A stretch of DNA of 64,000 bases from Pseudorhodoplanes sp. (GTDB taxonomy: Bacteria; Pseudomonadota; Alphaproteobacteria; Rhizobiales; Xanthobacteraceae), in assembly GCA_032027085.1 (NCBI GenBank), contig JAVSMS010000001.1, forward strand, positions 715,711 through 779,710, in the 5' to 3' direction. Under the pieces are notes generated by a model that was not told the DNA's origin, made no database searches, and saw nothing but the letters and a program-made list of their open reading frames with translations. A program made the translations under genes and the position numbers. Shown here in pieces: positions 8,402 to 10,537 of the stretch. The first letter of the stretch is position 1; the number at the start of each line of letters is the position of its first letter.

Positions 8402-8920
8402 TCAGGTGTGGCGCTCCCCCATGGCCGCGTCCCGGTAGGACTGCAGCGCGTCCAGCGCGTTCATGGCATGCAATACAGAATCGATGACGTGCGATGGAAA
8501 TTCCCGCTCTTCGAGAACCGCCTTGACCTTGAGCTTGTCTTCCGGACTGACCTGCAAGCCCGAAAGCCCGCCGGACTTGCTTACATGCGCCGCCTGGTGC
8601 GCCATGGCGGCGAGCGCCTCGAATGAATGGTGCCAGAAGTCTCCGCGCGTCGCGGCGAAGCGCGCCATCGATTCCAGCATGTTCGGGCTGGATTGCGGCG
8701 TCGAGAAAAGCCACGATAGCATCCAGGCCAGCATCATCGGCGCGGCTGCGGGCAGCGTGGTGGGCGCCGGCGGGGGCGGCATGGCAAAGGCGCCGCTGAA
8801 CGATGTCGCCTTCGGCCTCTCGGCAGATCGCTTCAGCACCCGGAGTTCTTTCTCCAGGGATTGAATTCGCTTCAGTAGATCGGCGTCACCCGCCGCGCCT
8901 CGGTCGTGCTGCTCGCTCAT
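8402..8920 (-). CDS. Unknown protein, first gene of the PKS operon
   Basis: 172-residue protein I do not recognise. The N-terminus (about 15-40) is a charged, probably coiled-coil segment rich in Lys, Glu and Leu. A proline/alanine-rich linker follows, then a hydrophobic stretch (MMLAWMLSWLF), then an amphipathic alpha-helical C-terminal half. No signal peptide is evident. It ends 41 bp before the AMP-ligase start and is co-oriented with the PKS genes, so it is probably co-transcribed. A structural or granule/synthase partner role is possible but not supported by any motif. Confidence 0.7.
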   Translation of the reverse strand: MSEQHDRGAAGDADLLKRIQSLEKELRVLKRSAERPKATSFSGAFAMPPPPAPTTLPAAAPMMLAWMLSWLFSTPQSSPNMLESMARFAATRGDFWHHSFEALAAMAHQAAHVSKSGGLSGLQVSPEDKLKVKAVLEEREFPSHVIDSVLHAMNALDALQSYRDAAMGERHT

Positions 8921-9068
8921 GATCGGCTCCGTTTAACTCGATCAGTCACAAACAAGATGTCGAAATCGAAGGCTGTCCCTGAATGAAGTCTTATCGTGCA
9001 TCTTCTCACCAAAGACGGTGTCCGTCCATAGCGGAAACCTGCGATGCGGACGCCGCGCCAGCCAATGG

Positions 9069-9100
9069 AAATGCCGGCGAATAATGATCCGCCGGCATTT
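9069..9100 (-). terminator. Hairpin downstream of small secreted protein gene
   Basis: Perfect 11-bp inverted repeat (AAATGCCGGCG / CGCCGGCATTT) with a 10-nt loop. It lies just past the stop of the 9135-9317 gene and directly beside the 9101-9120 palindrome. The trailing U-run on the minus strand is short (UUU), so it may be a weak terminator or only an RNA hairpin. Confidence 0.5.
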
Positions 9101-9120
9101 GGACAACCGATCGGTTGTCC
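9101..9120. promoter_or_regulatory. Perfect 20-bp palindrome, candidate operator of PKS operon
   Basis: Both strands read identically across 20 bp, with core ACCGATCGGT. It lies about 180 bp upstream of the first gene of the PKS operon and 14 bp past the stop of the preceding small gene. Size and core resemble operators of TetR-family repressors, but no such regulator lies in this window, so the binding protein is unknown. Confidence 0.5.
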
Positions 9121-9134
9121 CGCGCTCCCAGGCC

Positions 9135-9317
9135 TTACGGGGTAAACCGGTCGTTCTCGTCGCGTGCGAAGGGGGCAGCCTTGGTGACATCCCACTGATT
9201 GGCCTGGCTGATGCCGCCGCCGCCCTGCGCCCTGTATTCATGCGCATTGGCGGAGAAAGCAAACAGCGCGACCGTGACGGCGGCGATGGCGACGATGGCG
9301 GCTCGAATGTTCAACAT
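9135..9317 (-). CDS. Small secreted protein A
   Basis: 60-residue protein with a clear signal peptide (MLNIR, hydrophobic AIVAIAAVTVALFAF, cleavage after SANA). The mature part of about 35 residues is glycine- and asparagine-containing and ends DRFTP. Start chosen at ATG 9317, seven bases after a strong AGGAGG; ATG 9323 is too close to it. The same frame stays open upstream to an ATG at 9609, giving a 157-residue alternative, but that would place the signal peptide in mid-protein. It shares its leader sequence with the gene at 9676-9897. Function unknown. Confidence 0.65.
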   Translation of the reverse strand: MLNIRAAIVAIAAVTVALFAFSANAHEYRAQGGGGISQANQWDVTKAAPFARDENDRFTP

Positions 9318-9635
9318 GTTCATTCCTCCTCTGTTGGCGATGCCAAGGGTGACATCAGCGCATGGACGATGCCGCGGCGCGCCGAGGATGTATGTGATCT
9401 GGTCCACATTCCAGATTGGCGTTCGTGCGGCCGGCTTACGCGTTGGCAGGTCGTGCTTGGCCTGCCATTTCGGACCGGGACCGCGCATATAGTGCAGTTC
9501 GGGCCGGTAAGGCTGGAAGAGCTTGCGCAGCTCGATGGCGAATGCGGCCAGTTCGGCGTGGAAGCTCACTGATGTGTTCGGATGTGGATGTAAGGTGCAG
9601 TCGGTCATGACACTCGCTCTCCTGATCGGGAGCGC
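9318..9635 (-). other. Open frame upstream of small protein A
   Basis: About 320 bases with no clearly supported gene. The minus-strand frame of small protein A continues open through it from ATG 9609, which has an AGGAG ten bases upstream. The encoded sequence (MTDCTLHPHPN..., then RKLFQPYRPELHYM) looks moderately protein-like, so a separate or translationally fused short protein is possible. It begins just after the terminator at 9636-9672, so any transcript would need its own promoter here; I could not identify one with confidence. Confidence 0.3.
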
Positions 9636-9672
9636 CAAAAAAGCGGGCCGGCTCCGCAGAAACCGGCCCGTT
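9636..9672 (-). terminator. Rho-independent terminator of small protein B gene
   Basis: On the minus strand, arms CGGGCCGG and CCGGCCCG flank an 11-nt loop and are followed by a run of six T (complement of 9637-9642). It sits directly after the stop of the 9676-9897 gene. Confidence 0.8.
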
Positions 9673-9675
9673 CAG

Positions 9676-9897
9676 TCAGTCGATCTCCCAGTTACGTTCG
9701 ATCACATGCCGCTCGCCCGTCGGTAGGGGCCTGATCCCATGCGTCTCCCAGCGCATATCCTGCGCGTGGAGCGCACGCCTGTGTGCTCCGCCTGGATGCG
9801 GGCAACACATGTCGGTATCGAGCTCTTTGCCCGCCGACAATTGCGTCGAACCCATAAGAACGATGAGCGCAATAGCCACACTGGCTTTGGACATCAT
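9676..9897 (-). CDS. Small secreted protein B
   Basis: 73-residue protein with a signal peptide (MMSKAS, hydrophobic VAIALIVLMGS, likely cleavage around SAG). The mature part has a Cys-Cys pair, several histidines and a charged C-terminus ending ERNWEID. ATG 9897 lies seven bases after AGGAGG. The Shine-Dalgarno lies in a strong inverted repeat (9903-9948), so translation may be controlled by RNA folding. It is followed by its own terminator, so it is probably monocistronic or the end of a DUF1150 transcript. Function unknown; the His/Cys content could suit metal binding, which is only a guess. Confidence 0.65.
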   Translation of the reverse strand: MMSKASVAIALIVLMGSTQLSAGKELDTDMCCPHPGGAHRRALHAQDMRWETHGIRPLPTGERHVIERNWEID

Positions 9898-9902
9898 GAT
9901 CG

Positions 9903-9948
9903 TTCCTCCTCTGTTGGCGACGCCCTCGAAAGGGCGTCGCAGGAGGAA
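9903..9948 (-). promoter_or_regulatory. Shine-Dalgarno-sequestering hairpin in leader of small protein B
   Basis: In the minus-strand RNA, an inner perfect 10-bp stem (GCGACGCCCT / AGGGCGTCGC) is closed by a UUCG loop. It is flanked by an outer 8-bp stem pairing UUCCUCCU with AGGAGGAA. The latter is the ribosome binding site of the 9676-9897 gene, 7 nt from its ATG. A 6-nt bulge (CAACAG) separates the stems on the 3' side. Folding would hide the ribosome binding site. Confidence 0.6.
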
Positions 9949-10082
9949 GGCTAGGCGCAGATCATGCAGGATGACTGTAAGCGGGGTCACACGCCGATCA
10001 TGCGCGGCATTACGACGGCGCAAGCAAAACAGGTTGAATTGGAAGGCGGCGGGACGCCGGTTCGCTGTCGCGCGATCGATTT

Positions 10083-10325
10083 TCAGGTGATGTACATCGC
10101 GTCCAGATGGCTGTCGGCGGCATTCGCCACGGCGGATTCCCTGCTGCCGGTTACCAGGACCGGCCGGCCGTCGGCCGAATGCAGCACGAAGACGACGTAG
10201 CCCGGCGGCAACATCGGCGCTTCGGCGCAGAGAAATGCGACCCGTTCCGAAGGAATGCGCCTGATGTAAGCAAGCCGACCCTTGCCAAAGGTTGCAAATT
10301 CCGGATCAGAAAGGCCTGGCCGCAT
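10083..10325 (-). CDS. DUF1150 family protein
   Basis: 80-residue protein matching the alphaproteobacterial DUF1150 pattern: an N-terminal FATFGKGRLAYIRRI stretch, then FLCAEAP, then VVFVLHSADGRPVLVTGSRE and a closing alanine-rich helix. Start chosen at ATG 10325 because GGAGG lies eight bases before it; a longer frame to 10361 lacks this. In Rhizobiales, DUF1150 genes often sit near small heat-shock protein genes. None is present here, but the neighbouring RNA hairpin may reflect a stress-responsive setting. Biochemical function unknown. Confidence 0.8.
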   Translation of the reverse strand: MRPGLSDPEFATFGKGRLAYIRRIPSERVAFLCAEAPMLPPGYVVFVLHSADGRPVLVTGSRESAVANAADSHLDAMYIT

Positions 10326-10485
10326 GACGTCCTCCGAAGGCCGATGTGGGATCATCGGCATTCGAAAACTAATCCTTGCCCAGCCAGCCGAATGTGAGCC
10401 GGATTACATTGCAGGCAGATCGAAAGGAGATGACACGATTTTGCTGAAACTTTTTGGTTCTTATCTGAATGGACTGAGAGCGTAT

Positions 10486-10537
10486 CCGTCATCCTAAGGT
10501 GCGAGCCGCGTCAGCGGCGAGCCTCGACGTGACGGCC
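10486..10537. repeat. Intergenic palindromic repeat of Rhizobiales type
   Basis: The segment CCGTCATCCTAAGGTGCGAG ... GCGAGCCTCGACGTGACGGCC resembles the dispersed intergenic repeats of Bradyrhizobium/Rhodopseudomonas genomes (CGTCATCCT-GAGGTGCGAGC...GAGCCTCG-...GACGG). Terminal CCGTCA/TGACGG arms are inverted. Identification is from memory of such elements, and only one copy is in the window. The remaining bases between 10326 and 10579 show no gene. Confidence 0.45.

Follow-up and report, generated by a model that had tools for sequence, protein, structure and literature searches.

Our data indicate that a small gene on the minus strand of the window (the whole 64,000-nucleotide stretch of DNA analysed here) is preceded by a hairpin which, in RNA, is predicted to bury both the Shine-Dalgarno (SD) sequence and the start codon. 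At somewhat less than even confidence, we favour the view that this leader (leader A) masks its gene (gene A) in RNA begun upstream, limiting translation or insulating the gene from read-through. The hairpin is real, and SD masking by itself is moderately rare. SD-masking leaders are already known and leader A adds one, in an orphan gene; as a single case its importance is modest. The same SD block precedes a second gene (gene B), and the two leaders, one masked and one open, form a natural contrast pair. The features of the region are as follows.

10083–10325, minus strand: DUF1150 gene, a diverged third copy, upstream of gene A on the same strand (PF06620, E 3.3e-17)
9960–9966, minus strand: 5' arm of the outermost helix, CATGATC, pairing with GATCATG (9901–9895), which holds the start codon, in the MFE structure at 15–60 °C
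9941–9948, minus strand: anti-SD arm TTCCTCCT, pairing with 9910–9903 and without counterpart in leader B
9917–9940, minus strand: 10-bp inner hairpin, GCGACGCCCT (9940–9931), TTCG (9930–9927) and AGGGCGTCGC (9926–9917), from the fold and from shuffles of the upstream part
9911–9916, minus strand: 6-nt bulge CAACAG on the 3' side of the hairpin, within the shared block TCGCMAACAGAGGAG
9903–9910, minus strand: SD AGGAGGAA, buried, 5 nt before the ATG
9897, minus strand: ATG of gene A, after a CGATC that directly follows the SD
9676–9897, minus strand: gene A, encoding 73 aa; by eye the N-terminus resembles a signal peptide, and of six frames this one scores best for coding
9644–9670, minus strand: intrinsic terminator 3' of gene A, a 12-bp stem and T tract
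9338–9357, minus strand: inner hairpin of leader B, TGATGTCA-CCCT-TGGCATCG, with no anti-SD arm beside it
9312–9344, minus strand: homologous SD block before gene B, 33 nt, 88% identical to 9892–9924, with TCGCCAACAGAGGAGGAA exactly in common
9135–9317, minus strand: gene B, an ORF of 60 aa whose N-terminus likewise resembles a signal peptide by eye

On the minus strand, leader A reads CATGATC-tgcgcctagcc-TTCCTCCT-GCGACGCCCT-TTCG-AGGGCGTCGC-CAACAG-AGGAGGAA-C-GATCATG. Its predicted MFE fold consists of three helices, of 7 bp (at the start codon), 8 bp (TTCCTCCT with AGGAGGAA) and 10 bp (the inner stem). The MFE is -36.2 kcal/mol over 76 nt, compared with a mean of -21.5 (sd 3.3) for dinucleotide shuffles of this stretch (z -4.45), and none of 200 such shuffles was as stable. 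When the RNA holds both arms, the SD and AUG are predicted to be buried, with an opening cost of about 11 kcal/mol at 37 °C. The ATG of gene A lies 5 nt from AGGAGGAA and 7 nt from AGGAGG. The sequence-only reading had described a 10-bp stem with a UUCG loop, extended by an 8-bp SD helix, and sequence and fold place these exactly at 9903–9948. Its layout was thus correct in stems and loop, and it overlooked the 6-nt bulge and the 7-bp helix at the start codon.

Several comparisons bear on how unusual the hairpin is. Inner stems of at least 10 bp beside CAACAG were absent from 5000 shuffles of the upstream part, and stems of at least 8 bp appeared in 15 of them. The exact 8+8 arm pair, at a gap of 15–45 nt, is found at one place in the 4.97-Mb genome (none in the reversed control), and a repeat-element search of the same genome found a second copy of the leader A block only at block B. 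The opening cost of the gene A SD (11.5 kcal/mol for the 8 nt at -14 to -7) was the highest among 50 rough gene calls (mean 5.1, sd 3.0), which are heuristic, have some start codons that are surely wrong and include gene A itself; for the whole start region gene A came sixth among the 50. The fold with its z-score, this top rank and the absence of the 10-bp stem from the shuffles all support the masking reading. Against it, the SD opening cost was matched by 58 of 1000 upstream shuffles in which the SD and everything after it were fixed, and CCTCCT..AGGAGG pairs are not enriched genome-wide (8 places, against 11 for the reversed control). At three of these 8 places the pair is followed, 7 nt on, by the ATG of an ORF that looks plausible: gene A, L041 (262 aa) and L045 (a 95-aa small exported protein). 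The frame behind a fourth, at the same spacing, has 38 aa. Five 76-nt stretches were sampled at leader A, and the best of them was 258th of 15982 by raw energy in this 61% GC window. Wider conservation of an 18-mer was considered and rejected: six stretches in the genome contigs had flanks unrelated by eye, and about seven are expected by chance. As a separate observation, the 262-aa ORF L041 (G000:C1:1035956-1035989), which has the CCTCCT/AGGAGG pair around its SD, resembles by eye a ring-cleaving dioxygenase subunit.

The predicted state of leader A depends on where its RNA begins, which also favours the masking reading. The opening cost is predicted to be 9.9–10.9 kcal/mol for starts 50–100 nt before the ATG, and 1.1–4.4 kcal/mol for starts 21–45 nt before it. 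RNA begun upstream of about 9947, for example by read-through from the DUF1150 gene, would fold into the three helices, and with the SD and start codon of gene A masked it would seldom bind 30S subunits. Starts inside the hairpin, from 9942 rightwards on the minus strand, would give open RNA. Leader A would in this way limit translation and, on the pattern of phage T4 gene e, may shield its gene from transcription that enters from upstream. The sequence, the predicted fold, its change with the 5' end and the SD block common to A and B are shown here; we infer that the read-through RNA exists and is poorly translated, and likewise whether or not RNA of gene A also begins inside the hairpin.

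Phage T4 genes e and I-TevI are translated from late-promoter RNA, while their early read-through RNA is masked (PMC3014915, PMC2988022), a precedent that supports the masking reading. In these sources, the long RNA of T4 genes e, soc, 49 and I-TevI buries the SD and/or the AUG, which is likewise predicted for leader A. Leader A is also like the gene e type in that RNA without the 5' helix strand is predicted to be open. Unlike that type as described there, gene A lies on a bacterial chromosome and has no recognised internal start, and the likeness is one of predicted folds. Neither a promoter that would start RNA inside the hairpin of leader A nor, anywhere in 8850–10500, a promoter at tool threshold was recognised; the best sigma-70-like pair near gene A is weak (8/12, at 9990–9960). 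The EcfG motif described below was absent within 200 nt of gene A or B, where a much looser version matched once, at B. The lack of a promoter at threshold and of an EcfG motif near gene A argues against the masking reading.

A comparable arrangement was found in another group of small exported proteins. A 17-mer search allowing two mismatches led, within the same genome as gene A, to the leader of a 95-aa exported protein at G000:C1:4419714 (L098), which reads CCTCCTC-GCAAACA-GAGGAGG before the ATG and whose protein family occurs in 83 of 149 genomes of the bacterial family. Leaders at the loci of 30 members, with a start codon for all 30, were compared, and a GAGGAG-type SD was strongly buried in three of them: L098 (opening cost 11.7), its 80% identical orthologue L099 in G005, a genome of the same genus (13.6), and L100, from a different genus in the family (13.8). 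Out of 1000 shuffles, costs this high arose in 25, 3 and 2, respectively. The other 27 leaders had costs of 0.0–7.7, and most have a shorter SD, such that the values are not strictly comparable. L098 and L099 (TCGCAAACAGAGGAG) and L100 (TGCAAGCAGAGGAG) resemble leader A in having the SD block before the ATG and a buried SD, but differ from gene A in their arms, in an EcfG-type motif upstream (absent from A) and in belonging to a widespread protein family. The block of L100 is TGCAAGCAGAGGAGG, and its arms differ from those of L098 and L099. The exact block TCGCMAACAGAGGAG occurs four times in eight genus genomes (A, B, L098 and L099), each time ending 7–8 nt before the start codon; matches to the block with two mismatches numbered 51, against 41 for the reversed control with up to two mismatches. 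The paired positions of L098 and L099 are uninformative: 22 of 22 cells were paired with one pair changed on both sides, and 267 of 500 shuffles equalled this, which counts against the masking reading.

The general-stress motif of EcfG in Sphingomonas is GGAAC-N17-20-GTT (PMC6599016). In the 30 leaders, GGAAC-N16-20-GTT within 100 nt of the start was present in seven (L098, L099, L100, L106, L118, L120 and L124), always ending 28–32 nt before the start, whereas the reversed control gave 1 of 30, the other strand none and the shuffles a mean of 0.18 with a maximum of 2. The combination of a buried SD and this motif in L098, L099 and L100 supports the masking reading; the other four motif-bearing leaders, L106, L118, L120 and L124, have opening costs of 2.4–5.2 and their SD is not strongly buried, which argues against it. 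In L098, L099 and L100, GGAAC-N17/18-GTT ends 28–29 nt before the ATG. If RNA starts some 6–8 nt after the GTT, its first base would fall about 20–23 nt before the ATG, at the start of the block, and the anti-SD arm would not, or not wholly, be transcribed. For RNA starting 21–24 nt before the ATG, the predicted opening costs were 2.0–6.8, against 11.7–15.5 for the full leader (short versus long RNA: L098, 2.0 and 11.7; L099, about 4–5 and 13.6; L100, 6.8 and 15.5). Longer upstream RNA of these three leaders would be closed according to the folding model. For a T4-type start, the promoter motif is correctly placed in L098, L099 and L100, and its effect is a predicted one.

It may be that the arms of these three leaders serve only as promoter DNA and never enter an RNA, a possibility that weighs against the masking reading. 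Reading the arms of L098 and L099 first as promoter DNA leaves less support for a hairpin that is always transcribed and more for masking that depends on the start site. The sequence-only reading had held that a transcript starting beyond the anti-SD arm would speak against it. Judged from the promoter motif, RNA of L098 and its two relatives probably begins within the arm or beyond it; gene A has no recognised start. The data hint at promoter-embedded masks in related small exported genes. A wider logic, which we consider doubtful, would be that certain small exported proteins of this bacterial family follow a T4 gene e-like scheme on the chromosome: general-stress (EcfG) promoter DNA would double as the anti-SD arm, leaving read-through RNA silent, so that only stress-sigma RNA is translated in L098, L099 and L100, and gene A would combine this SD block with a mask of another build and an unrecognised internal start. 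If the link between promoter and masking arm in these three members holds, translation would depend on which promoter made the RNA, as described for phage T4, and the finding would gain in importance.

A covariance model (R1) built from L098 and L099 was searched against 296 genomes of the family at E up to 0.1. It gave matches in 6 of the 296, the two parents at 1e-16 or better and five others at 0.003 to 0.1; by eye, none of these five (L160–L164) has an SD in the hairpin of a plausible gene, and they were rejected. In the window R1 had four matches (E 0.12–1.6), one over block B and one over leader A on the wrong strand.

Translation had also been proposed to be off until the outer helix is opened by heat, a protein or a small RNA. 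The predicted burial of SD and AUG agrees with the first half of this proposal; heat opening does not emerge from the folding model, and no protein or sRNA trigger was found. That the full-length leader is a regulated switch, opened when CAACAG or the inner hairpin is recognised by an RNA-binding protein or an sRNA, has a very slim chance of being correct. In its favour, the CAACAG block is common to A and B, and L098 and L099 share the block with one base changed. On the other hand, no conserved binding element extends beyond the block, and neither an Rfam match nor a trigger was identified. Rfam families above threshold were absent from 8900–10500, where the sole match (9024–9104) was below the gathering score and belongs to a non-thermometer family. 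For a riboswitch in leader A, no aptamer or Rfam match and no wider conservation was found.

Heat is an unlikely opener of leader A in the model. The predicted fold is the same from 15 to 60 °C, with the SD 93% paired and falling to about 90% at 60 °C; at 42 °C it is about 93% paired, and the SD helix still holds at 70 °C. The idea of an RNA thermometer controlling a heat-linked gene, suggested earlier from the hairpin and the adjacent DUF1150 gene, is consequently hardly credible in our estimate. In fourU and ROSE RNA thermometers the SD is buried in a helix of the 5' UTR, and the paired SD and AUG of leader A resemble known thermometers in this respect. The difference is that in leader A a perfect 8-bp arm stacks on a GC stem of 10 bp, with no modelled melting at 30–60 °C, and that it has no Rfam thermometer match (8900–10500); also, gene A, which has no family match above cut-off, is not a recognised heat-shock gene. 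The supposed heat-shock neighbourhood fails as well, because the hsp20-like gene (so read from its translation) lies with two other DUF1150 copies at another locus of the genome, and because the window copy ends in DAMYIT. The copies at the hsp20-like locus end in ETVSVH and ETVSLH, and the diverged window copy shares 44 and 54% identity with them. DUF1150 corresponds to LarA, a heat-shock activator of Lon in alphaproteobacteria, which depends on valines and a histidine at its C-terminus (PMC10665427). The window copy lacks these C-terminal Val/His residues required for Lon activation. Among the eight genus genomes, three DUF1150 matches occur only in the own genome and in G005, where two are partial, overlapping pieces. 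At the start of the window copy (10325–10361, minus strand), a hairpin GCCGATG/CATCGGC (by eye) directly precedes the SD, and only one of the 50 gene calls has a start region with a higher opening cost.

The ORF of gene A does resemble a small exported protein, as the sequence-only reading had supposed, by its signal-peptide-like start seen by eye. The protein had no match above cut-off in Pfam or NCBIfam. Relatives were found in none of 60 related genomes, in no plasmid and, by a seeded scan that finds close relatives only, in none of the genome contigs; plasmid DNA matching 8900–10400 was likewise not found. Gene A is, judged by these searches, an orphan, and its lack of relatives, which leaves no covariation of the arms to draw on, counts against the masking reading. 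From the DUF1150 stop to the SD hairpin there are about 134 nt, and a terminator scan found no terminator between the DUF1150 gene and gene A, which supports masking of read-through RNA.

Upstream translation could also act on the hairpin. It might melt it, through a MICA mini-ORF (9965–9951) or an in-frame extension from GTG 9990 or TTG 10023, or gene A might itself start upstream, with the palindrome being coding; we regard this group of explanations as improbable. The mini-ORF stops 2 nt before the anti-SD arm, the frame from 10023 is open into gene A, and the extension (9898–9990) is coding-like in the frame of A (score 0.18; 0 of 500 mononucleotide shuffles), although a reverse-strand frame scores nearly the same (0.14). 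No SD was seen by eye at any of seven listed upstream starts, whereas ATG 9897 is preceded by a full SD and opens a signal-peptide-like sequence. A review of translational coupling gives RNA unfolding as one of two models (PMC12548453). In the SD-sequestering leaders treated in that review, an inhibitory helix lies at the ribosome binding site of the downstream gene, as in leader A; leader A differs from them in the distance from the DUF1150 stop given above and in that no SD-bearing upstream frame enters its hairpin.

Leader B provides the contrast. The SD block is repeated 580 nt downstream of leader A, before gene B, and proteins A and B have no similarity. Leader B has no anti-SD arm and its SD is open, with an opening cost of 2.0, or 4.75 in a longer stretch, in which 603 of 1000 shuffles were equally closed. 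That the only homologue of leader A is open argues against the masking reading. Its inner hairpin (8 bp) ends 1 nt before CAACAG; stems of at least 8 bp were found in 59 of 5000 shuffles. When the inner stems of A and B were put in register by hand, two of eight pairs were changed on both sides (C-G to U-A and C-G to A-U); the stem of B has two G-U pairs, and the comparison, being of two sequences, is one case. Lack of conservation of the arms, which the sequence-only reading had named as a refutation, is partly borne out: conservation of both arms in related leaders was not found, as gene A has no orthologue and leader B has no anti-SD arm.

The chief rival to masking is that the hairpin is a by-product of inverted copying, which we consider unlikely on balance while giving it appreciable weight. 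The left arms would have arisen at replication, when template switching copied the right arm (minus CTGTTG) in inverted orientation, and would be untranscribed or would merely dampen a weakly used young gene. Template switching is able to generate RNA stems, as described in PMC8794818. Read as its reverse complement, the left arm TTCCTCCT-GCGACGCCCT matches the right arm exactly once 6 nt of the latter are left out, the right arm is common to A and B while the anti-SD arm is not, and gene A is an orphan; the genome-wide pair count given above is also in keeping with a by-product. However, a hairpin of its own stands in leader B at the corresponding register, with the two exchanges seen in the alignment by hand, SD masking recurs in L098, L099 and L100, and the 6-nt gap means that one simple switch is insufficient. 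A DNA operator of a dimeric regulator, or an RNA 3' end of the DUF1150 message, is a very improbable role for the palindrome. In its favour, GCGACGCCCT-TTCG-AGGGCGTCGC, lying between two same-strand genes, forms a perfect inverted repeat of 10 bp, but the stem is not followed by a T tract and the terminator scan makes no call there; the G-U pairs of leader B leave no clean DNA dyad, and the genome has no second copy apart from block B.

Two further observations were made around gene B. A strong inverted repeat, AAATGCCGGCGAAT / ATCCGCCGGCATTT, lies 3' of the gene (window 9069–9100, minus strand) and is a possible terminator. A small ORF (window 9135–9608, minus strand) has a conserved LHYMRGPGPKW core without a Pfam match and continues in frame into gene B with no stop between them. 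Elsewhere in the genome the core is matched three more times, one of these matches containing a stop, and it was found in 11 of 31 genomes searched, the own genome included.
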